Assembly (NCBI GenBank): GCA_003697085.1
Contig: RFFU01000094.1
Coordinates: forward strand, 1 to 64,000
Reading direction: 5' to 3'
From: Candidatus Hydrogenedentota bacterium
Lineage (GTDB): Bacteria > UBA8481 > J006
Length of the DNA stretch: 64,000 bases
Made by a program: the position numbers and the translations under genes. The notes below the pieces were generated by a model that did not search any database, was not told where the DNA came from, and saw only the letters and a list, made by a program, of their open reading frames with translations. The number at the start of each line of letters is the position of its first letter. Position 1 is the stretch's first letter. Shown here in pieces: positions 3,942 to 17,185 of the stretch.

Positions 3942-6053
3942 TCACGTCCCCCAGTAGGATCGGTACATAAAATAAGCCTTGCGGAGACGGCGTTCGAAGG
4001 GACTGTGCTTTCCCGAACCCTGCCCAACGATGCCGAACCATTCCTCGTGAGCCAAACCATCGGGGAAGGGCATCGCGGCCTCCGAGTGGGTATCGTGCAC
4101 GATTCCCGGCTCGACACCGCCTTTCGTGTTCTTCCACCATTCGTCGAGCCACTCGAAGATAACCCCGCCGATGGAATTGCCCGCCCTCGGTCCCGCGGCT
4201 TGATTCAGAACGATGTCTCTGAGCGCGTACTCGTGATACGAGGCCTGGCCGACTTGATCCTCCCCCCGTCCCTCGAAGTAGGCGTCACAACCGTACTCCG
4301 TCACCAGAACGGGCCGGTCGAAACTCCTTTGAATCTCGCGGAAAAGGTCTCCGAATCCCTTCCCTCCTCGATACGCATTGACTCCGAAGACATCGATCTC
4401 CGGAGAAAACCTGTTGTATTCCTTCGTCAGATAGGTCTCGAGGTTTCCGATTGCGACGGGATGGTTGGGATCCAACTCGTGGATCATTTCCGCCACTTCG
4501 TTGACGAAACGGGCATACGCCTCCGGATAGGCGCCCGCGTTCGTTCGCGTCGCATTCGTATGAGCCTCGGTCATCGGCATATTGTTCTCGTTCCCCAGAA
4601 GCCACATCAGGAGGAAGGGTTCGTCCTTGAGCGCTTCGACCTTTTCTCGAACGGTGCGTTTCATATTCGCGAGATGTTGCGGGTTCGTATAATCGGTTCC
4701 TTCCTCCCACGTCGCCCCCGAGCCGACCGTGTAAGCGCCGAGGAAATCCCCCATGATGACCCGGATACCGAATTTCTCGTAAAGTTCCCGAAGAAGCGGC
4801 GCATTGATGTCGCTCGAATCATAACCCGGCTCCCCGGGCTTGTTTCCCGCATAGAGCCGGATTGCATTGATCCCCATCTCCTTCATCAATTGAAAATCTC
4901 CGACCGCCTCTTCCCCTTCGTCTTGCTCTCCGTTTCCGTTTTTATCGACCCAGGCGTCATAGGGCGCGTCGATTCGACCGTTCTTGTTCTCGTCGCGAAA
5001 CATCCAATCGGAGGCGAAGCGCGGGTCGGTGAACGGGCCCAAACCTACTTTCGTCGGAGCGTAGGTGACACCGCGAACGACGAACGGCTTTCCATCGACC
5101 AACATCCTCCAGTGTCCGTTGTCGTAACGAATGAGTTGGACCGTGCCTTCTCCCCGTCTCTCGACGATCTTGCGTGAGGTCAGATCGATCGGGCGAAACC
5201 TCTTCGTCGGATCGCGCTTCACGATTTTTCCCGGATCGACCTTGATGATGTCGTTATCCAGATCGACATCGTGTCCATTCTCGATCGTAATCTCTCCGCC
5301 TTTATACTCCAATCCCATCTCCGGGTAGTCGTTGCACAACCTTCGAATAGCCGCCATCGCGACCGGGGCGGTGTACCAGACGAAGTCGCCGCTGGCGCTC
5401 CAGACCGCCGTTCGGGGGAATTGGACGATCGAGGCGTAATAGGCGCGAACGGCTTGACGGATCAGGCCGCCACGCTCCAAAGCCTCAGCAATGAAATAGG
5501 AACGCACTCCCGGGTCCTCCGGCGCCGTGGCCCAGATGAAAAACGCCCGATGCGGATCCCCCGTCTTGAAGGCATCCCAGTGCGTCACCCCCAGAAGATT
5601 CTTCTCCGCCATTTCCCGGTAAGCGGGATCGTTCTTCACCCCGTCCTCGTTCGGAGGAATTCCTTCTCCAACCGCTTTCCGCAAGCCCTCGTAGTCCGTG
5701 ATTTCATAGCGAAACTCGTTCGTTCCGACGCCGTGAAACCGCCCGTATTTTTTGTAATCAATGATCTCTTCCGATCCGGAATCGAATAGCGAGAATTTCG
5801 GCTTTGGAAGCCGAAATCCCTTGGTGAACCTCACGATCAGTTGAGTGTACGGATCCAATTCGGTCGATTTCACACTCCGCTTCGAAACTCCTTTCGAAGA
5901 AGCCGGTGATTCTGACACTTTGTCCGCGTTCGAAAGCGGTGTCCTGTTACCCCCACATGCGGAAAGAAGAAGAAGCGAGAGGAGAATACCGGCGCCGCCC
6001 GGAATTAGATTGATCTTTCCTCCTCTTTCCCGCAAAGGACGACGCCTCTTCAT
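3942..6053 (-). CDS. Clan GH-A glycoside hydrolase lipoprotein
   Basis: A 703-aa probable secreted lipoprotein. A basic N-terminus and hydrophobic run end in the lipobox LLSAC (Cys33). Residues 60-310 are an unrecognised alpha/beta region. From about 315 (VDGKPFVVRGVTYAP) a GH2/GH5-like TIM barrel begins. The acid/base Glu is E489 in WLLGNEN, the nucleophile Glu is E586 in LVTEYG, and VNAYRG lies between them. Two EF-hand/dockerin-like Asp/Asn loops (354-362, 370-382) interrupt the first barrel strands and probably bind calcium. A strong GGAGG lies 6 nt before the ATG. It follows the LacI-like sensor gene by 61 nt, so it is probably co-transcribed and induced by a sugar ligand. The substrate, most likely a beta-glycan, is not predictable. 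Confidence 0.8.
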   Translation of the reverse strand: MKRRRPLRERGGKINLIPGGAGILLSLLLLSACGGNRTPLSNADKVSESPASSKGVSKRSVKSTELDPYTQLIVRFTKGFRLPKPKFSLFDSGSEEIIDYKKYGRFHGVGTNEFRYEITDYEGLRKAVGEGIPPNEDGVKNDPAYREMAEKNLLGVTHWDAFKTGDPHRAFFIWATAPEDPGVRSYFIAEALERGGLIRQAVRAYYASIVQFPRTAVWSASGDFVWYTAPVAMAAIRRLCNDYPEMGLEYKGGEITIENGHDVDLDNDIIKVDPGKIVKRDPTKRFRPIDLTSRKIVERRGEGTVQLIRYDNGHWRMLVDGKPFVVRGVTYAPTKVGLGPFTDPRFASDWMFRDENKNGRIDAPYDAWVDKNGNGEQDEGEEAVGDFQLMKEMGINAIRLYAGNKPGEPGYDSSDINAPLLRELYEKFGIRVIMGDFLGAYTVGSGATWEEGTDYTNPQHLANMKRTVREKVEALKDEPFLLMWLLGNENNMPMTEAHTNATRTNAGAYPEAYARFVNEVAEMIHELDPNHPVAIGNLETYLTKEYNRFSPEIDVFGVNAYRGGKGFGDLFREIQRSFDRPVLVTEYGCDAYFEGRGEDQVGQASYHEYALRDIVLNQAAGPRAGNSIGGVIFEWLDEWWKNTKGGVEPGIVHDTHSEAAMPFPDGLAHEEWFGIVGQGSGKHSPFERRLRKAYFMYRSYWGT

Positions 6054-6114
6054 TCGAGTCCTCCTCGACCTCGTTTTTCTCCCCTGATCGCCAAGAAACC
6101 GGTACTCTGAATAA

Positions 6115-7086
6115 CTAACGCGTTTCCCGAATCCGCGCTATTACGTCCGTTCCCGGTTCGTAGATGATCTCCCCTTCGTACCCCGCCAGGCAGGAGCCCC
6201 GAAGGACCAGTTGCTCCTTCACCAATATGTCTTCGAGATGACCGGTTCCCTTCAGAACCCCCACTAACATCTCGGAGGACCGCTTCCCCAACTCCGCGAA
6301 CGGTTGGCGTACCGAACTCAAGGGGGGATCCGCCTGGCGGGCCGGCACCGAGTCGTCGAATCCCACGATCGCGATCTCCTCCGGAACCTTCTTTCCTCGT
6401 TCCTTGATCACGCGTAATCCTCCGAGTGCCTGCGCATCGCTGGCGAAAACCATCGCGTCTGGCTCTGTTCCCGCTTCGAACATCGCCGCCGTCGCCTCCG
6501 CCGCTTCCTCCATGTCGTATTTGTATTCGTCCACCGGAATGAATTCGGCTCCCGCCTCCGCCAAAACACTCCTTACTCCTTCCGCACGTTCTCCCCCCGC
6601 CCATCCCCGCTCGTTGATCGGACCGACAAACGCAACTTTCCTCCGACCGATCTCCAACAGTGCCCGCGCAACAAGGGTTCCCCCGTAACGATGGTAGATC
6701 GCGACATTCCCCTTCCGCGATAACGCGGACGGCCGGTCGATGCAAACAACGGGCTTTCCCTTCTCGTACAACGCATCGATATCCGCCTCGGGAAGATCGA
6801 GAAACGCCGTGATCACTCCTTTTACGGACGATTCCTCGTGGATTCGCTTGAGAAAATGTTTCAAATCCCATTCCAGTTTCTCGGGTTCGTCGGAAAGAAG
6901 ATCCAGTCGCATCGTGGAAAAACCCGCCGTTTCCGCTACCTCATCGATCGCTGCTTGGATCGTGCGCGAAAGATTCAAGCCGACCGGACTCCATAAAACG
7001 GCTATCTTGTCCCGGTCATCCTTCTCGAGACGTCGTGTCGGCAAGGGAATACTTACAGGTGGTGGAACCGCCCCTGTCGCAGCCAT
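6115..7086 (-). CDS. LacI-family sugar-sensor domain lacking the HTH
   Basis: A 323-aa protein whose whole length matches the periplasmic-binding-protein-like effector domain of LacI/PurR regulators. Features are KIAVLWSP at residue 27, GVITAFLDLP, KPVVCIDRP, RRKVAFVGP, PDAMVFASD, and the classical EEIAIVGFDDSVPARQADPPLSSVRQP near the C-terminus. There is no lacI-type helix-turn-helix at the N-terminus, only a Pro-rich 25-residue leader, and no signal peptide or lipobox. The start is well fixed: AAGGAGGT at 7098-7105 on the minus strand lies 11 nt before the ATG, and no HTH is encoded upstream in any frame. Either it acts with a partner protein or it has lost regulator function. First gene of the hydrolase operon. 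Confidence 0.8.
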   Translation of the reverse strand: MAATGAVPPPVSIPLPTRRLEKDDRDKIAVLWSPVGLNLSRTIQAAIDEVAETAGFSTMRLDLLSDEPEKLEWDLKHFLKRIHEESSVKGVITAFLDLPEADIDALYEKGKPVVCIDRPSALSRKGNVAIYHRYGGTLVARALLEIGRRKVAFVGPINERGWAGGERAEGVRSVLAEAGAEFIPVDEYKYDMEEAAEATAAMFEAGTEPDAMVFASDAQALGGLRVIKERGKKVPEEIAIVGFDDSVPARQADPPLSSVRQPFAELGKRSSEMLVGVLKGTGHLEDILVKEQLVLRGSCLAGYEGEIIYEPGTDVIARIRETR

Positions 7087-8790: not shown

Positions 8791-9518
8791 CGCGTCTTTT
8801 CTCCCGGCACTTTTCCCTCCTCCGGAAGACCGATTCGTTCAAAGAACCTTCTCTTGAGGTCGCCCGGTCTCTCGAGATCGGATTGCAGAATTTCGTCCAC
8901 GATTCGTCCCTGGTGGAAGATCAGAATTCTATCGCCGATCTCCTCCACTTCCGTCAAATCGTGGGATGCGAAGAGAACCGAACGGCCGTTGGAGGTTCGG
9001 GAACGAAGGAGGCGTCCGAGTTCGAGACGGGCCAGGGGATCCAGCCCCGCCTGAGGTTCGTCGAGAATCAGGACCGTCGGATCGGAAGCCAAAACAGCCG
9101 CCAGTGCCACCCGACGTCGCATTCCCTTCGACATCTCGAGTACTCGAAGCCGCGCGGCCCGTTTCATTTTTGTCATTTCCAGAAATTCCTCCGGGCTTCG
9201 CTCAGTCTTCACCCCGCGCGTGGCGGCTCGCTCCTTCGAGAAACGCACTATTTCCCCGCCCGTCAATTCCGGCGGTAACTCCGTTTCCTCCGGGAGGAAC
9301 CCGAACCGCGGCTTGCCGCGGGGAAAATCGATCGCTCCTTCCGTCGGCCGGATCAACCCGAGCAAAGCCTTTAACGCCGTCGTCTTGCCTGCGCCGTTCA
9401 AGCCTGCGATGCAAAGGACCTCTCCTTCACGGATCGAGAAATCCACGTTGCGAAGAGCAATTTGTCCGGGAAGATAGACCTTGGTTAGATTCCTGACTTC
9501 CACCAGCATTTCCTTCAT
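8787..9518 (-). CDS. ABC transporter ATP-binding protein
   Basis: A 243-aa nucleotide-binding subunit. Walker A is GLNGAGKTT (about residues 39-47), the signature motif is the variant MSKGMRRRVALA (LSxGQ position reads MSKGM), Walker B is VLILDEP, the D-loop GLDP, and the switch His is in FASHD. It resembles the CcmA/GldA group that pairs with ABC-2 permeases. It overlaps the preceding GT2-methyltransferase gene and the following permease gene by 4 nt each, so all four genes of 7.3-11.1 kb should be one transcript. The C-terminal 30 residues extend beyond the usual domain. Confidence 0.85.
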   Translation of the reverse strand: MKEMLVEVRNLTKVYLPGQIALRNVDFSIREGEVLCIAGLNGAGKTTALKALLGLIRPTEGAIDFPRGKPRFGFLPEETELPPELTGGEIVRFSKERAATRGVKTERSPEEFLEMTKMKRAARLRVLEMSKGMRRRVALAAVLASDPTVLILDEPQAGLDPLARLELGRLLRSRTSNGRSVLFASHDLTEVEEIGDRILIFHQGRIVDEILQSDLERPGDLKRRFFERIGLPEEGKVPGEKTR

Positions 9519-11092
9519 AATTCCTTTTCCTTTTTCTCTTCGGAGAATCGCTTTTCGTCCTGTGTCCTCGAACCCGGGACATGTTTTTCCGCGCGATCCC
9601 CCGCCCGCTCCGCCGAATGACGTTGCGCTGATTCGAGAAGCGTTTCCAGCGTCGGTTGCGCCGCGGCTTCCGCGTAGATCTGGTAGGAAAACAGCCCAGG
9701 CAGAACGGAGAGAGCGATTCCATTGAACGCCAAAAGAAAACGCGACAGAAAATTCCTTCCCAATGCCTTGGGAAAAGGGGCAGGCACGCCGCGGACCCGT
9801 TGCACGTCGTACCCGGTTTCACGCAGCAAACGGAGAAAACTTGAAAACGTGAAGAGGCGCCGGTGCGTCTTGTCGAGGATACCCGTTCTGCTGTAATTGA
9901 ATTGGCCGAGAAGAAGCATAAGCCGGACAGGAAGAAAAGCGACATTCGGAACCGTCATTATGATTCTCGGTGAGTTCGCTCCCAAGGCTCTTCGCAGACG
10001 CAGGAGAAATCCCTCCGGGTCGCCGAGATGTTCGATTACGTCCAACAGAAGGATTATATCGACGGATGAGACGACTTCCGGAAGGGGATCGCGGTCGATG
10101 TCAAGACACCAAAACCGCTCGAACGATCCCGTTCCCTTTTTCAAGGGAACCACATCCACCCCGAAGACAGTGCACGAACGCTCCTTGAGAAGTGGAGCCA
10201 GGGCAGCCGCCTCGGATGCCACCATCTCCAACACGCGGCTTCCGTCCGGAATTCGTTCCAGGGCGAAGGTGTGGGAGGAGGGATACCCCAATTTCAAATC
10301 ATAACGGGGACGGCCATCCTCCACTTCATAACGGATCCGGCTGAAGATTCCCATCTGATGAATCCGCCATGCCAGCGTCGTCTTCACGACATTCCACGCG
10401 TAAGGGATTCCGTTGACGTGACAGATCTCGTCTCCGTAGTAAGTCGGGATGGGAACCTCGCGGATCCGCGCGCGCGCGGAAGCCAGTTGGAGAATAATCT
10501 CCGTGTCGAAATGAAAATCGTTCGTATTGAATTCGAACGGGATCTTTTTCAGCATTTCCACGGAATAGGCCCGATATCCCGAATGATATTCCGAAAGCCC
10601 CAGGCCCGTTATGCGGTTCTGGAAAGAAGAGAGAATCCGATTGCCGAGGAACTTGTAGAGCGGCATGCCCCCTCGCCTTGCGTCTTTTGGAACAAGCATG
10701 CGACTTCCGAAAACGGCGTCGGCTTCTCCTGTGAGAATCGGTTCCAAGATGTCTCCCATAACCTCCGGAGCATACTGGCCGTCACCATGCAGAAGAACGA
10801 CGGCATCGAAGTCATTCCGAATCGCATAATGATACCCGATCTTTTGGTTGCCTCCGTAGCCTTGGTTGACGGGATTTCGCAGAACCGTGATGGGATAGGG
10901 GTGTTGGAGCCGTTCTTCCAACCCGCGTTCGAAGGTGCGATCGCGGGAGGCATCGTCGATAACGAGAACCTCCAGTTCGCAGGAATGTCGAGGAAGAGCG
11001 ATTCTCCGAAGAACATCCGACAACGTCGTTTCGGCATTGTAGGCGACGATGAAAACGAGCACTCGCGGGATTACCTTTGTCTCTCGTGTCAT
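9515..11092 (-). CDS. GT2 glycosyltransferase-methyltransferase fusion
   Basis: A 525-aa two-domain protein. Residues 8-240 are a GT-A family 2 transferase: FIVAYNAE, VIDDASRD (45-51), NQGYGGNQ, the LHGDGQYAPE metal site (101-110), and SGYRAYS. Residues 265-470 are a class I SAM-dependent methyltransferase: FGVDVVP, ILLLDVIEHL (347-356), and IMTVPNVAF. The SAM-binding motif I position reads SRVLEMVASEAAAL rather than the usual LDxGCGxG, so cofactor binding may be altered or lost. The C-terminal 50 residues are charged and probably disordered. First gene of the ABC operon. The likely role is glycan or glycolipid synthesis coupled to export. Confidence 0.8.
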   Translation of the reverse strand: MTRETKVIPRVLVFIVAYNAETTLSDVLRRIALPRHSCELEVLVIDDASRDRTFERGLEERLQHPYPITVLRNPVNQGYGGNQKIGYHYAIRNDFDAVVLLHGDGQYAPEVMGDILEPILTGEADAVFGSRMLVPKDARRGGMPLYKFLGNRILSSFQNRITGLGLSEYHSGYRAYSVEMLKKIPFEFNTNDFHFDTEIILQLASARARIREVPIPTYYGDEICHVNGIPYAWNVVKTTLAWRIHQMGIFSRIRYEVEDGRPRYDLKLGYPSSHTFALERIPDGSRVLEMVASEAAALAPLLKERSCTVFGVDVVPLKKGTGSFERFWCLDIDRDPLPEVVSSVDIILLLDVIEHLGDPEGFLLRLRRALGANSPRIIMTVPNVAFLPVRLMLLLGQFNYSRTGILDKTHRRLFTFSSFLRLLRETGYDVQRVRGVPAPFPKALGRNFLSRFLLAFNGIALSVLPGLFSYQIYAEAAAQPTLETLLESAQRHSAERAGDRAEKHVPGSRTQDEKRFSEEKKEKEL

Positions 11093-11320: not shown

Positions 11321-11410
11321 ATGTTTCAAAAAGATTGGAGAAACAGAAGAAACTTCCTTCCGCGTTCGGTGAGGTCATGGCGGGTTCTGTTGAAAGGGAG
11401 TATCGTATGA
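11321..11410 (+). CDS. Possible 29-residue leader ORF
   Basis: ATG at 11321 is preceded by AAAGGAG with 8-nt spacing, one of the better ribosome-binding sites in this part of the window. The 29-codon frame is basic (MFQKDWRNRRNFLP at its start) and its TGA overlaps the ATG of the next gene as ATGA. This could be a coupled leader peptide that sets translation of the downstream exported protein. No homology is recognised and it may be coincidental. Confidence 0.3.
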   Translation: MFQKDWRNRRNFLPRSVRSWRVLLKGSIV

Positions 11411-11763
11411 CGTCCGGAGTGCTCATCCTCTTGTTGGTTCTCACCCCCGGCCCGCTGGATTCCCAAGGAGGGCACATCGATCCAGCAACGGGACAGTACC
11501 ATTTCCACGCGGGGCCTTCCGTGCAATTCCGCTATGTGGACAAGGAGGGGCGAATCTGGGAGGGAAACAGCCCTTTACCGGACGAGGTGCACACAGTGGA
11601 GTGGAACGACACGGTATGGAACAGCGGCTTTCTTCTTTTCGTTCTGGTAGGGGCGGTTCTTTCGACCGGTCTCGCCTTTTTCCTGGGGCCCCGGGTCCGC
11701 GGGTACCGGTCTTACCGGAGAATACGCCGGAGGAGAAAACGGCGTTCTTCCCGCGCGACGTAG
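11407..11763 (+). CDS. Small exported protein with GHIDPATGQYHFH motif
   Basis: A 118-aa protein. A short hydrophobic N-terminus (MTSGVLILLLVL) acts as signal or anchor. It is followed by a His-rich GGHIDPATGQYHFHAG segment of the kind seen in small exported TGxYHxH proteins, and a second membrane span near residues 75-95 (FLLFVLVGAVLSTGLAFFL). A strongly basic tail (RRIRRRRKRRSS) should stay cytoplasmic. The start is fixed by AAAGGGAG 8 nt before ATG 11407. The His pattern suggests metal binding, but function is unknown. It is convergent with AsnB. Confidence 0.55.
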   Translation: MTSGVLILLLVLTPGPLDSQGGHIDPATGQYHFHAGPSVQFRYVDKEGRIWEGNSPLPDEVHTVEWNDTVWNSGFLLFVLVGAVLSTGLAFFLGPRVRGYRSYRRIRRRRKRRSSRAT

Positions 11764-11835: not shown

Positions 11836-13749
11836 TCAGCGTTCCAGAAAGGTCTCGGCCCAAAAATTAAGATTGATGTACTGCCAAAAGAACATATAGT
11901 GGTTTTCCCCGGCAAGATGGCGTCGAAAAAGAGCTTTGACAGCCTTTTGTGAATAGATGGATTGGTTCACATAGGAATGTCGGGCAATCATTTCTTCCAA
12001 GGGTTTTCTTAAATCGTTTCTGATCCATTCGTCCAATGGAGCATTGAACCCGGTTTTATCCTTTCGCGTACGAACTTTTTCGGGAAGAACACCTCGCATG
12101 GCTTCCCGGAGAATCCACTTGCCCAGTCCGTTTCGTATCTTGTATTCGATGGGAAGGCGAAAACAGAACTCCGCCAGTCGGTAGTCCAAAAAGGGAACGC
12201 GGGCTTCTATCGAGAAGGCCATGGTGTTTCGATCCTCAGCCCTCAGGACCGGCGGCACCGTCTCGTAGAGCAATTCGAGCCAACAGCGCCGACGAAGCGA
12301 ATCCCGGAAAGGCGCATCGAAATTCGGTTCCTCGATCGACGACTGAAGTTCTGGGCTCAACGCGGAAAGGTATTGGGAAAAACGGCGCACTTCAAGGGAA
12401 TGGTCCTTTTGCAAGTCTTCGACATACTTCTTTTCACGACGATATTCATCCGGGTCCCGCCTATGATTTCGAAGCCAAGCCTGGTATTCGGCCGAGTCAT
12501 CCTTTCCGGCGGAGCGAAGATCATAAAAGAAGTGATGATAGTGGTCCCAATATCCTGCTAAGAGTTCGTCTCCTCCGTGCCCCGTGAGAATAACGGGAAT
12601 TTCCGCGGAAGATATTTCCTTGGCAATAAGGAAAAGACTCAACCATGTCACGGTACAGACGGGTTCGTCGTGACGTAGCAACATTTCTTTCAGCGTGGGA
12701 AGAACCTCGGCGGGCCGCGGTCGTACGTAACAGGAACGAATGCCGGTTTTTCCTACTACGGCGTCGATGTACTTGCTCTCGTCATAGTACCCCGTTCCCG
12801 TTACGCCGGAAAATGCGGTGAAATCGGGGTTGACTTGAGCCGCCAGCGAGGTGATGGAAGTGGAGTCCATGCCGCCGCTGAGCATACAAGCGACCGGAAC
12901 ATCACTTCTCAAACGGAGGGTCACGGCACTGTGCAGCAAAGAGCGGAATTCCGCGACGATCTCATCTTCGGAATGTTCGGCATCCAAAAGAGGATCTTGG
13001 GGCAGGAGAGACCAATAACGTTGCGTGTGAAACGAACCGTCCGGACGGACATGCCCATGGCATGCTTTGGGGAATTGCGAGATCTCCCGAAAGAAGGAAC
13101 GATCGTCGATATCGACATAGCGGTAATGCCGTCCCGCGTAATTGATGATCCGGACCAGATCCGGTTCCCGGGAGACGGCCGAGTGTTTCAACAAGGACTT
13201 GATTTCGGAAGAGAAAAGAACCCCGCCGGGGACCCGCACGTAGTACAAGGGCTTCTTGCCGAAGCGATCCCGCGAGAGAATCATCTTGCGCACGCGGTGA
13301 TCGTAGATCGCCAACGCCCACATTCCGTTGAACTTGGCGAAACAATCCGTTCCCCAAGCAAGGTACGCTTTCAAAACGACTTCGGTATCCGACGTGGTGT
13401 GGAAGCGGTATCCGTTTTCTTTTAATTCTTCACGCAGTTCAATGAAATTATAGATTTCGCCGTTAAAGACCAGCCAAACCCCTGCTTCCTTTTCCCCCAT
13501 AGGTTGGGAGGCGTGGGAGGAGAGGTCCAGGATACTGAGCCGACGGTGTCCGAGGGCCACGGGGGCGTCCGTCAAGCGAGAGGGGTCTTCAGGGTTCCGT
13601 AGTCTTTCGAAGAGGCCTTTTTCAGGGTCGATCAGAAGAATCCCCCGATCGTTTGGACCACGGTGCTGAAGACAGTCCGTCATCTTTTCGATCAAGCGTC
13701 GTTCAATAGTACCTCCGTTCAGGCCGAGAAAACCGGCGATTCCGCACAT
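11836..13749 (-). CDS. asnB: Asparagine synthase (glutamine-hydrolysing)
   Basis: A 637-aa two-domain enzyme. The class II glutaminase domain starts with the nucleophile Cys2 (MCGIAGF) and contains RGPND, GHRRLSILDLS and FNGEIYN. The ATP-pyrophosphatase domain holds the PP-loop LSGGMDST and the C-terminal KTGFNAPLDEW. The usual reaction is ATP-dependent transfer of glutamine ammonia to aspartate. In surface-polysaccharide clusters, paralogues amidate sugar acids or other acceptors. It is the third gene of a tight unit with the 115-aa protein and the N-acetyl sugar amidotransferase (3-6-nt gaps), so a glycan-amidation role is as likely as asparagine supply. The gene looks more AT-rich than the flanks. 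Confidence 0.85.
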   Translation of the reverse strand: MCGIAGFLGLNGGTIERRLIEKMTDCLQHRGPNDRGILLIDPEKGLFERLRNPEDPSRLTDAPVALGHRRLSILDLSSHASQPMGEKEAGVWLVFNGEIYNFIELREELKENGYRFHTTSDTEVVLKAYLAWGTDCFAKFNGMWALAIYDHRVRKMILSRDRFGKKPLYYVRVPGGVLFSSEIKSLLKHSAVSREPDLVRIINYAGRHYRYVDIDDRSFFREISQFPKACHGHVRPDGSFHTQRYWSLLPQDPLLDAEHSEDEIVAEFRSLLHSAVTLRLRSDVPVACMLSGGMDSTSITSLAAQVNPDFTAFSGVTGTGYYDESKYIDAVVGKTGIRSCYVRPRPAEVLPTLKEMLLRHDEPVCTVTWLSLFLIAKEISSAEIPVILTGHGGDELLAGYWDHYHHFFYDLRSAGKDDSAEYQAWLRNHRRDPDEYRREKKYVEDLQKDHSLEVRRFSQYLSALSPELQSSIEEPNFDAPFRDSLRRRCWLELLYETVPPVLRAEDRNTMAFSIEARVPFLDYRLAEFCFRLPIEYKIRNGLGKWILREAMRGVLPEKVRTRKDKTGFNAPLDEWIRNDLRKPLEEMIARHSYVNQSIYSQKAVKALFRRHLAGENHYMFFWQYINLNFWAETFLER

Positions 13750-13752
13750 AGA

Positions 13753-14100
13753 TCAGCGTCGGGCTTCGGGGCCCTCGTCCAACCAAAACAGAAGGCGACT
13801 GCCCTGTTCCTTGAGGTATCGGAAAAACAGGTCCGTTTTCTCCTTTTCAACGGCGTTGATGAAGTATTTCCCGGCTTCGTTGACGACCAAGGCGACTTTG
13901 TATCCTTCTCTGCGAAGACGGGCGTTGAGCGAAGGAGCGAGGTAATAACCCCATGAGGTTGCTGTAATATCGCACTCCTTCCCTTCCGGGGTTTTCAGCG
14001 TGATCATCTCCCAAGGTTCGAGGAGAATCTTTCCCAAATCTGTGATCTCGATTTTTCCACAGCGAAAGACGCGCGGCGGCCGGTTGAAATCCGTTTTCAA
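13753..14100 (-). CDS. 115-aa protein of unknown function
   Basis: Not recognised. A mostly beta-type N-terminal half (FRCGKIEITDLGKILLEPWEMI, then TPEGKECDITATSWGYYLAPSLN) is followed by an alpha/beta half with KVALVVN and KTDLFFRYLKEQGSRLLFWLDE. No signal peptide or membrane span. It sits between two ammonia-transferring genes with 3- and 6-nt gaps, and its compact size suggests an accessory or adaptor to one of them. A sugar-side role is inferred only from context. Confidence 0.6.
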   Translation of the reverse strand: MKTDFNRPPRVFRCGKIEITDLGKILLEPWEMITLKTPEGKECDITATSWGYYLAPSLNARLRREGYKVALVVNEAGKYFINAVEKEKTDLFFRYLKEQGSRLLFWLDEGPEARR

Positions 14101-14106
14101 TTTATA

Positions 14107-15252
14107 CTATTCCTTCTCCTGAGGAAGAATGCCGTTCAGATGTCCGGGAATGAACCATTTCCCCTCCTTGTCCTGCTTCCAGATCTCTCGGTTCCTCATC
14201 CTTTCGAGGATGGCGAAGAATTCCTCGCGTGTGTAACCGAGAAACTCCAGGTAAGACTGAATGTAATCGTCGGAAATATCCTCAAGATCGTATTGCTTTA
14301 CGAGCCGGGCTCCTTCCTCGCGGGTCAGTCGTCCGTTGCGAATATCCTCGCAAGCGTGATCCGTTGCTCGGCCGTATCCGAATTTCAAGACCTTCAAATA
14401 TTGGTGTAACCGATTAATCTTTTCGTCGATTCCAACATAGGTTCGGTATGTTCCCTCGCGCGGTGATTGCAACTCGCGAAATCCGTATCGCTTTGCAATT
14501 TCCAAATGACGTTCGGAGTCCCAATGAAAATAATAACTCGTGAAAACGGCCTTCGTCGATTGCTGTTTGTCCATCTCCTCGGGATATTCGTAGGGAACGA
14601 GTTGTTCATAAGGTATGCCGTGCGTTTCCGAGACCCACTTTGCTGTCCGGCCGGCGTTGGCGGCATAGCGTTCGAACCACTCTCGGCTGATTGTGTTCTG
14701 TTGCGCAAGGGAACTTGAGCCGCCGTATTCGAAGGCCGAATTTTCCCCGAGAAGCACGAGCGGTATGTGAAATTTCAAGGCCACATGGAGAGGGTAGGCG
14801 TGGAGCAGAGTGTGGCTCATCAGGTCCGGATCGCCATACTCCTCCAGGCCGAGGCGAATCAATTTCCGCTGCAGTTTTCGATCTGGACGATATATCGTCA
14901 AATTCGCGCCCATTTCCGGGATCAGCATTAAATTGTGCCATCCGATCTCCGTCTTGATTCCGTAATCGACGTTTACGGCCAGTATTCGGAGATCGTATCC
15001 CAAAAGACGATGAACCTGGGAAATGCTGTCCTTCCCGCCGCTGACGGGAACGGCGACATCATAATAGGGAGCCTTGACCGCCCGGGCCTCCTTGACAACC
15101 GATTTGAATTCCTCCTCCCGAGCTTTCCAGTCGATACCGTGCAAAGCCGCGTTCTTCTTCTCGTGTGCGCGGCAGGCCGAACACACACCCTTCTCGTCGA
15201 ATTCGACGTAGGGTTTCGTGTCGGGAACGAGGCATTTTCGACAATATTTCAT
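14107..15252 (-). CDS. N-acetyl sugar amidotransferase (WbpG/PseA/WbuX type)
   Basis: A 381-aa PP-loop ATP pyrophosphatase of the N-acetyl sugar amidotransferase family, which activates a sugar carbonyl and installs an amidine/acetamidino group during O-antigen or flagellin-glycan synthesis. The N-terminal CRKCLVPDTKP and CSACRAHE form a likely four-Cys zinc site (C4, C7, C23, C26). The PP-loop is VPVSGGKDS at about residues 68-76. LLGENSAFEYGG and a C-terminal LVKQYD segment follow. Full family length. The partner glutaminase (HisH-like) usually found beside it is absent here, while a glutaminase-containing AsnB lies two genes downstream. Start ATG at 15252, with GGGAG about 13 nt upstream. 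Confidence 0.85.
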   Translation of the reverse strand: MKYCRKCLVPDTKPYVEFDEKGVCSACRAHEKKNAALHGIDWKAREEEFKSVVKEARAVKAPYYDVAVPVSGGKDSISQVHRLLGYDLRILAVNVDYGIKTEIGWHNLMLIPEMGANLTIYRPDRKLQRKLIRLGLEEYGDPDLMSHTLLHAYPLHVALKFHIPLVLLGENSAFEYGGSSSLAQQNTISREWFERYAANAGRTAKWVSETHGIPYEQLVPYEYPEEMDKQQSTKAVFTSYYFHWDSERHLEIAKRYGFRELQSPREGTYRTYVGIDEKINRLHQYLKVLKFGYGRATDHACEDIRNGRLTREEGARLVKQYDLEDISDDYIQSYLEFLGYTREEFFAILERMRNREIWKQDKEGKWFIPGHLNGILPQEKE

Positions 15253-15544
15253 TATTTGAAGTATCTCCCTTTTCCAGGAGTTGTCCTTTTAAGCGTCTCA
15301 CTCAAATTCCAAACACCATCCTACAAAATCGCTCCTGCCCGGTCAATATCGTCCGCTTTTCAGGAACAAGGCGCTTTCCATTTCGTTTTCCGTTTTACGA
15401 GTCATTCCCGCCGTGCGGTTGAAAAATCCACCACGGATATCTCCACGCTGGAACCAAATCTTTCCTCTCACTTCGGTTTCCGTATAGAGTAGTTTGAACA
15501 GTGGGGAGTTGAAAGAAAGGAGAAAGCGGGAGGCGGTTGTAAAC

Positions 15545-17185
15545 ATGATTACTGTGACATTTCCACGAGGCGGGCAGATCGAGGTGGAAGAGGGGACGCC
15601 GGTGCGCACCGTGATCGAAGATGACGGGAAGATTCTGGCGGCCAGTGTCGATTTTCTCACCGTCGATCTCGGCTACCGGCTCTTGCGGGACTGCTCGGTT
15701 CTTCCGCTCACCTACGATTACAAGGAAGGGCGCGAGGTCTATCGCCGAACGCTTTCGTTTATTCTTGCCGCGGCTGTCTCCCGTGTCTGTCCCGGCCATC
15801 TTCTCAAGATCGGGCATTCTCTCGCCGGGGGGTATTACTACGATCTCGAGGGAATCGAGGAGGTGTCTCCGAAATTGCTTTCGAAGATCGAAGAGGAAAT
15901 GAAGAAATTGATTCAAGCCGCCCGGCCGATCCAAAAGCACTTCGTGTCGGCGGCTCGGGCGATGGAGATATTCAGCGAGCGTGGTCGTGAGGACAAGGTG
16001 CTTCTCTTGAAACGGAATCTCCGGCACGACATCGGTGTCTATGAACTCGACGGTTTTTTCGATATCCCCATCGGCCCGTTGGCTCCGGATACGGGGCGAA
16101 CCCCGTTCTTCCGCCTTGTCCCGTATAATCTGGGGTTCGTCCTTCGCTTTCCGGATAAGAAGGACATTACCAAGATGACGGCTCCGAGTGAACAGACGAG
16201 ACTCTTTGCGGTTTATCACGAATCGAAGAAATGGAGCTCGATCCTGGGGATCAGCACGGTTGGAGACATCAATGAAGTGATTGCCGAAGGGAACTTCGCG
16301 GAATGCGTTCAGGTGGCCGAGGGTCTTCATGAGAAAAGGATCGCCGCGATTGCCGATCAGATCGTCGAATCCCACCGACGAGGCGCGCCCTTGGTCTTCA
16401 TCGCCGGCCCGTCCTCGAGCGGAAAGACGACCTTCGCGAAGCGGCTCAGTGTCCAACTCCGCGTCAATGGACTTCGACCTCTCGCCCTTGGGCTCGATGA
16501 TTACTTCGTCGATCGCGAGAAGACGCCACGCGACGAACGGGGAGAATTCGATTTCGAATCCCTTTATGCCCTCGATATCGAGCGGTTCAATGACGACCTT
16601 TTGGCGTTGCTCGACGGACGAACGGTGACGCCGCCGCGCTTCGATTTCAAGTCCGGGCTTTCCGTTCCCGGGGAACGTTCTCTCCGTCTCGAAAAAGACC
16701 AGGTGCTCATTGTCGAGGGAATCCACGGCCTCAACGACGCTCTTACGCCGCGAATCCCCGGGGAGCGGAAATTCAAGATCTACGTGTCCGCACTTACTCA
16801 ATTGACGATCGATTTCCACAATCGCATTCCGACGACGGATACGCGTATGATTCGTCGAATCGTTCGGGACAGGAAATTCCGGGGGTACAGCGCGGCCGAG
16901 ACGATCCGCCGCTGGCCCTCGGTGATTCGAGGCGAAAGCCGCAATATCTTTCCTTTTCAGGAAAGCGCCGATGTCATCTTCAATACGGCACTGCTTTATG
17001 AATTGGCGGTTCTTCGTCCCTATGCGCGGCGGGCGTTGGAGGAGGTTCCCCCCGATCAGCCGGAGTTCGCCGAGGCGCGGAGGATTCTCGAGTTCATTCA
17101 ACTCTTTCTCGAAGGCGACGAGCGGGTCGTCCCCCCAACCTCGCTTCTGAGGGAATTCATCGGGGGTTCATCGTTCAAGTATTGA
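15545..17185 (+). CDS. Nucleoside (uridine) kinase with TGS/ThrRS-like N-terminus
   Basis: A 546-aa protein. Residues 1-60 resemble a TGS domain (VTFPRGGQIEVEEGTPV) and residues 60-230 resemble the second additional domain of threonyl-tRNA synthetase (SFILAAAVSRV, GHSLAGGYYYD). Residues 280-500 are a uridine kinase-like P-loop domain, with AGPSSSGKTTFAKRL at about 287-301 and DDYFVDREKTP for substrate binding. This architecture is known in Thermotoga, Clostridia and others. The predicted reaction is NTP-dependent phosphorylation of uridine/cytidine or a related nucleoside. ATG 15545 has GGGAGG 12 nt upstream, better than an in-frame TTG at 15494. Divergent from the amidotransferase over a 292-nt gap with no recognised elements. 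Confidence 0.85.
   Translation: MITVTFPRGGQIEVEEGTPVRTVIEDDGKILAASVDFLTVDLGYRLLRDCSVLPLTYDYKEGREVYRRTLSFILAAAVSRVCPGHLLKIGHSLAGGYYYDLEGIEEVSPKLLSKIEEEMKKLIQAARPIQKHFVSAARAMEIFSERGREDKVLLLKRNLRHDIGVYELDGFFDIPIGPLAPDTGRTPFFRLVPYNLGFVLRFPDKKDITKMTAPSEQTRLFAVYHESKKWSSILGISTVGDINEVIAEGNFAECVQVAEGLHEKRIAAIADQIVESHRRGAPLVFIAGPSSSGKTTFAKRLSVQLRVNGLRPLALGLDDYFVDREKTPRDERGEFDFESLYALDIERFNDDLLALLDGRTVTPPRFDFKSGLSVPGERSLRLEKDQVLIVEGIHGLNDALTPRIPGERKFKIYVSALTQLTIDFHNRIPTTDTRMIRRIVRDRKFRGYSAAETIRRWPSVIRGESRNIFPFQESADVIFNTALLYELAVLRPYARRALEEVPPDQPEFAEARRILEFIQLFLEGDERVVPPTSLLREFIGGSSFKY

Follow-up and report, generated by a model that had tools for sequence, protein, structure and literature searches.

A three-gene cassette in a 64,000-nucleotide stretch of DNA from a Candidatus Hydrogenedentota bacterium (assembly GCA_003697085.1, contig RFFU01000094.1, positions 1 to 64,000; hereafter, the window) encodes a WbuX-type N-acetyl sugar amidotransferase (NASAT), a 115-amino-acid protein of an unnamed family, and an AsnB-like enzyme. 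The cassette probably belongs to an acetamidino-sugar (nonulosonic acid) system that is independent of HisH and HisF and in which the small protein is a dedicated partner of WbuX; this reading is given a probability of roughly 60%. The identities of the genes, their conserved order, their co-occurrence, the exclusion with HisH/HisF in a genome census, and the residue changes are observed, whereas the product, acceptors, binding, and ammonia route are inferred. The pathway would supply the cell surface with a nine-carbon (nonulosonic) acid bearing an acetamidino modification. WbuX would use ATP to activate the sugar's N-acetyl group and add ammonia, yielding an acetamidine, and WbuX enzymes of the small-protein type would dispense with the HisH/HisF glutaminase-channel pair. 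The small protein most likely binds WbuX and helps to present the sugar or to bring in nitrogen, and the AsnB-type glutamine enzyme that accompanies them would either feed ammonia or make a second amide.

The layout of the cassette agreed with a preliminary description made from the sequence: the three genes follow one another on the minus strand, with gaps of 6 nucleotides between WbuX and the small gene and 3 nucleotides between the small gene and AsnB. The WbuX product scored 308.3 bits against TIGR03573 (cut-off, 203.2), covering positions 1 to 343 of the 344 in the model, and the motifs CRKC...GVCSAC and SGGKDS were read from its translation; a tetracysteine CxxCxn[GN]xCxxC and an SGGxDS PP-loop are given as features of the NASAT family in sections of PMC10607449. 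The sole match of WbuX among PDB sequences at an E value of ≤0.1 was LpNASAT of Legionella pneumophila (8WEX; E, 3.6e-38; residues 13 to 352). LpNASAT is a different member of the family, and the sections of PMC10607449 used here name no small partner; the terms HisH and HisF do not occur in its main text. The AsnB product scored 437.7 bits against TIGR01536 (cut-off, 267.1), and the small protein had nothing above the cut-off in Pfam or NCBIfam.

A single-sequence search with the small protein found relatives in 2 of 60 genomes, its own included, and on one Azospirillum brasilense plasmid, with none in phage records and none in a first scan of genome contigs. A three-row profile search of genome contigs found 87 relatives, and 80 loci were kept. 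Of these, 77 were spread over 18 named phyla, and the other 3 had no phylum name; 79 came from bacteria and 1 from an archaeon. Named isolates with the small protein include Azospirillum brasilense, Paramagnetospirillum marisnigri, Leptolyngbya PCC 6406, and Methylocystis sp. B8. Phage or viral carriage of the small protein was rejected, as neither the phage records nor, by peptide patterns, the viral contigs contained a match; no AsnB was found in the viral contigs either, by a single-sequence pattern scan that detects close relatives only.

Labels for the genes of each locus came from clustering open reading frames by similarity and testing representatives against Pfam, so that individual loci may be mislabelled. 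The genome-neighbourhood search for the 115-amino-acid family that the preliminary description had proposed found WbuX as the immediate upstream neighbour of the small gene at 54 of the 80 loci, which rules out that the two are chance neighbours. Elsewhere, the upstream position held a cytidylyltransferase (12 loci), no labelled gene (8 loci), or something else or a contig end (6 loci), and directly downstream there was a methyltransferase in 50 of the 80 loci. The frames of WbuX and the small gene overlapped in 44 of the 54 loci with WbuX upstream, by exactly 4 nucleotides in 35 of the 44, an arrangement suggestive of coupled translation. The common order was as follows: a Gfo/Idh oxidoreductase, a DegT aminotransferase, an NAD-dependent epimerase/dehydratase, a GNAT acetyltransferase, NeuB, AsnB, WbuX, the small protein, and the methyltransferase. 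By its gene content, this common cluster is a nonulosonic (legionaminic- or pseudaminic-like) acid pathway. Among the 45 loci with a stretch of >16 kb, AsnB was present in 40, WbuX in 41 (a count that includes HisF-fused copies), NeuB in 36, and the methyltransferase in 36; NeuB lay within the stretch of 48 of all 80 loci. A carbamoyltransferase stood between AsnB and WbuX in L005 (positions 5079 to 6869), one of the two loci nearest the WbuX of the window.

No WbuX was present in the stretch of 13 of the 80 loci, in several cases because the contig ends. These loci came from 12 genomes, and 10 of the 12 had a WbuX above the cut-off elsewhere, so the refutation envisaged in the preliminary description, a 115-amino-acid gene without either enzyme, fails in substance. 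In the nine of these genomes whose WbuX surroundings were examined, the order NeuB-AsnB-WbuX was found every time. In L015 and L019, the neighbours of the small gene were unrelated genes, and both genomes still carried a NeuB-AsnB-WbuX cluster.

Co-occurrence was counted in a census of 386 diverse genomes, in which only WbuX matches above the cut-off were included; sub-cut-off matches in 159 further genomes (8 of the best were also examined) and two weak partial small-protein matches (E, 4e-4 and 6.7e-4) were left out. WbuX was present in 23 genomes, and a clear small protein was present in 7, all among those 23 (hypergeometric probability of about 1e-9, uncorrected for shared ancestry). HisH and HisF were near WbuX in 12 of the 23 genomes, none of which had the small gene, and the 7 genomes with the small gene had no HisH or HisF in the stretch around WbuX. 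Three of the remaining WbuX genomes (G449, G030, and G624) had neither AsnB nor the small gene.

The genome of the window contained one WbuX. Its only HisF scored as the histidine HisF (347.5, over the cut-off) and fell below the WbuZ and HisF2 cut-offs, and its HisH matches, at two contig ends overlapping by 99 nucleotides, were read as one split gene. All of these matches lay off the contig of the window, in agreement with the earlier remark that no HisH-like glutaminase is found at the cassette. A HisH/HisF pair elsewhere in the genome, the other finding that the preliminary description took as a refutation, was likewise rejected for sugar amidation: only histidine-type genes were found, in an assembly that is 94.6% complete, at which a missed pair is possible. 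NeuB gave four matches over the cut-off in this genome, two of them strong, on contigs C121 and C75; there was no match on the contig of the window.

WbuX sequences were placed in a quick tree of 108 rows and in a careful one, built from 39 selected rows, that served for a clade test. In the careful tree, a single clade of all small-linked WbuX enzymes (24 rows, including that of census genome G638) was not rejected, with a p-AU of 0.17. The WbuX of the window grouped with those of L003 and L005 (support, 100/100). The quick tree mixed phyla, which suggests that the clusters move.

The small protein was aligned over 66 members, comprising that of the window and those of 65 of the 80 loci. Arg10, Asp44, Trp50, Gly51, Tyr53, and Ser57 were invariant, mostly inside the motif WGxYATPSLNxRL. 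At an E value of 0.01, none of the 66 sequences matched Pfam and 1 matched NCBIfam (E, 0.002), the latter to a lanthipeptide model that is unrelated; among PDB sequences the small protein had no match at an E value of 1. The predicted model (pLDDT, 92.8; pTM, 0.79) was beta-rich with one long helix. Fold searches with it reached a best Foldseek E value of 0.53 and a best VIA Z score of 5.0 over 41 to 47 residues only, with no match spanning the whole model; the partial VIA matches, to a phycobilisome linker and to DdrB pieces at about residues 61 to 110 (Z, ≤5), were read as a common arrangement. Five loci, those of the window, L003, L005, L177, and L179, formed a minority subtype with the motif L[ASG]PSLN, and WbuX adjoined the small gene in all five. 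Second small-protein copies with a changed motif, YLSNSLN, were seen in L018 (8001 to 8357) and L067 (8001 to 8351), in each case shortly before another AsnB gene.

The AsnB of the window, referred to as AsnB2, was rejected as the standard partner of WbuX. With lineages assigned by pairwise identity only, it shared 46.7% identity with the L177 AsnB whose frame overlaps the small gene and 50% with a partial second AsnB in L005, versus 31% with the L005 enzyme of the usual lineage, AsnB1, which normally precedes WbuX; identity to the remaining aligned cluster AsnBs did not exceed about 35%. The AsnB1 of the same genome was on contig C111 and was 56% identical to that of L005. The earlier tie of the 115-amino-acid protein and AsnB to the amidotransferase was upheld in one part, in that WbuX and AsnB-type enzymes are the company of the small protein in the 80 loci and the census and WbuX of this type has no HisH/HisF beside it, but not in the other, since the AsnB in the window is not of the usual partner lineage. 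The order in L177, WbuX, small protein, and AsnB, was the same as in the window, with NeuB next. AsnB2 relatives were seen near WbuX in two genomes besides that of the window, and because all three genomes also have another AsnB (in L177, not of the usual type), AsnB2 seems to have been added to the other enzyme rather than to have replaced it. It would be an extra ATP-dependent amidotransferase with its own glutaminase, probably amidating a carboxyl group, either on the same sugar or on the acyl group of that sugar.

Active-site residues were compared with those of Escherichia coli AsnB. All 40 of the usual cluster AsnBs kept Cys1, Arg49, Asn74, Asp98, and the PP-loop, and AsnB2 had the same four residues and an SGGMDS PP-loop. 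Glu348, part of the aspartate-activating site of asparagine synthetase, was kept in none of the 40 (Thr in 34, Val in 5, and Ile in 1). Its replacement by His in the window led to the rejection of AsnB2 as an ordinary asparagine synthetase. Because the glutaminase set and the PP-loop are kept and Glu348 is changed, both lineages should hydrolyse glutamine, use ATP, and have an acceptor that is not aspartate. This pattern of residues speaks more for a separate amidation than for a simple supply of ammonia, without deciding the matter.

It is possible, although rather unlikely, that AsnB is instead the direct ammonia source of WbuX, replacing HisH and HisF, with the small protein as a coupling or channel piece between the two enzymes. 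Among 47 near-full-length cluster AsnBs, 40 had a WbuX start ≤300 nucleotides downstream, and these 40 keep the full glutaminase site; the census WbuX genes came with HisH/HisF (12 genomes) or with the small protein and AsnB (7 genomes); and a part of PMC6120980 proposes AsnB for the acetamidino modification of a Tannerella forsythia glycan. However, the ATP PP-loop kept in all 40 enzymes would be needless for a mere glutaminase, AsnB1 is on a different contig in the genome of the window, the second small-protein copies in L018 and L067 are beside AsnB and away from WbuX, and one census genome (G589) has HisH, HisF, and AsnB together.

A doubtful alternative is that the small protein serves the methyltransferase, or a CMP-sugar synthetase, and not WbuX, acting as a sugar-binding piece for later N-methylation. 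The methyltransferase that follows the small gene in 50 loci, the natural fusions of the two in L007, L016, and L043, the cytidylyltransferase upstream in 12 loci, and the N-methylacetimidoyl legionaminic acid that sections of PMC3958885 report from Campylobacter all point in this direction. The minority subtype points the other way: the usual methyltransferase had no match in the stretches of the window, L003, and L005 and only weak matches, some kilobases off, in L177 (51 bits) and L179 (37 bits), and all five loci keep WbuX adjacent. The lack of a strong methyltransferase match in this subtype weakens the case for a role tied to that enzyme. In addition, 11 of the 53 majority-subtype loci of at least 12 kb were also without a methyltransferase match. 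It is quite improbable that the small protein is a passive member whose position reflects transfer of whole clusters and whose function within the sugar pathway is a separate one: the mixing of phyla in the WbuX tree and the unrelated neighbours in L015 and L019 would fit this, but both of those genomes still have the NeuB-AsnB-WbuX cluster, and the frames of WbuX and the small gene overlap in 44 of 54 loci.

Several observations weigh against a HisH/HisF-independent system with the small protein as the dedicated partner of WbuX. A cytidylyltransferase takes the place of WbuX upstream of the small gene in the 12 loci mentioned above, and the three fusions to the methyltransferase mean that the true partner could be another enzyme. 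The kept ATP site of AsnB argues for a reaction of its own beyond ammonia supply. Two genomes, G311 and G316, carry the small gene with no WbuX found; both assemblies, which lie behind the short-contig loci L016 and L064, look partial, and that of G311 is 1.7 Mb and apparently from a single cell. Conversely, G638 has a WbuX of the small-linked clade and an AsnB, with no small gene detected. The basal branches of the WbuX lineages are weakly supported, and the p-AU of 0.17 does not demonstrate a single small-gene clade. Neither NeuB nor the usual methyltransferase is adjacent to the cassette of the window. Lastly, HisH and HisF share a cluster with the small gene in 13 of the 80 loci (L011, L012, L014, L026, L028, L055, L057, L060, L061, L065, L070, L075, and L082), and G589, one of the 12 HisH/HisF genomes of the census, has its AsnB beside HisF, implying that the systems are not mutually exclusive by genome.

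In 12 of these 13 loci, an unfused WbuX was also near the small gene; HisF was fused to a second WbuX in 8 (open reading frames of ~660 to 910 amino acids), and the stretch ended inside HisF in 5. L075 had only the HisF-fused WbuX in its stretch, with another WbuX 13 kb away in the genome. The small-protein and HisH/HisF systems can coexist, as far as seen each with its own WbuX copy, and these 13 loci apparently have two amidination systems side by side. In L160, L161, and L166, HisH and HisF accompanied a closely spaced pair of WbuX genes. A broader reading, in which WbuX without HisH/HisF, together with a complex of the AsnB-type enzyme and the small protein, is a convergent second ammonia-handling route in which the new small-protein family links the hydrolysis of glutamine to the sugar, with an occurrence that extends from an archaeon to cyanobacteria and proteobacteria, is tentative and on present evidence unlikely.

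The closest known acetamidino systems are of the WbpG-HisH2-HisF2, WbuX-WbuY-WbuZ, and PseA types, whose HisF-like partners are represented by the WbuZ and AglZ/HisF2 models. The window shares with them the amidotransferase family TIGR03573, the tetracysteine, and the PP-loop; unlike the WbuXYZ-type systems, it has the small protein and AsnB-type enzymes, and no dedicated HisH/HisF-type partners were found. A glycosylation cluster of Tannerella forsythia described in part of PMC6120980 resembles the present ones in having an AsnB-like gene in a nonulosonic acid cluster, but WbuX and the small partner are not named in that part, and the glycan also bears a uronamide that could need AsnB. Campylobacter flagellins carry Leg5Am7Ac and Leg5AmNMe7Ac, which are acetamidino and N-methylacetimidoyl legionaminic acids, according to sections of PMC3958885. 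Such groups would fit WbuX together with a methyltransferase; in contrast, no such methyltransferase lies beside the cassette of the window. The terms "asparagine," "amidotransferase," and "HisH" do not occur in PMC7371886, and in the open-licence library searched, judged mostly from listings, no paper naming the combination of WbuX, the small protein, and AsnB turned up.

The G+C content of the cassette was 52.3%, versus 57.2% for the remainder of the window, and none of 606 sliding windows of the same size (step, 100) was lower, so the segment is AT-richer than its surroundings, as had been noticed earlier. The suggested composition check for transfer gave a divided answer, with the lowest G+C content on one side and, on the other, third-position values of 0.59 to 0.63 in the cassette genes, close to the 0.61 to 0.68 of eight neighbouring genes; the low G+C content is a weak sign of transfer. 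The cassette and the genes around it are listed in the table.

Table. Genes of the cassette and its surroundings in the window
Gene or product	Position	Strand	Features
WbuX/WbpG/PseA-type N-acetyl sugar amidotransferase (NASAT)	14107-15252	minus	381 amino acids; TIGR03573; PP-loop SGGKDS; tetracysteine CxxC...GxCxxC
115-amino-acid small protein, unnamed family	13753-14100	minus	TTG start; minority subtype, YLAPSLN versus YATPSLN
AsnB-like enzyme, second lineage (AsnB2)	11836-13749	minus	637 amino acids; TIGR01536; His at the Glu348 site
Glycosyltransferase family 2 fused to a methyltransferase domain	9515-11092	minus	Next large minus-strand gene past the cassette
142-amino-acid protein	11335-11763	plus	Near-threshold YHYH_alt domain (27.4 bits; cut-off, 30)
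563-amino-acid protein	15494-17185	plus	Uridine kinase-like domain; threonyl-tRNA synthetase match at residues 87-205, below the cut-off

The charge of surface sugars is altered by amidine groups, and their recognition can be altered as well. According to sections of PMC10607449, the working of the sugar amidotransferases is little understood. Little is likewise known about their source of nitrogen. The present results tie an unnamed protein family to about a third of the WbuX genomes in the census (7 of 23). The small protein marks a recognisable class of clusters in genomes and predicts which WbuX enzymes should not need HisH and HisF, and its presence in named isolates makes its role testable.

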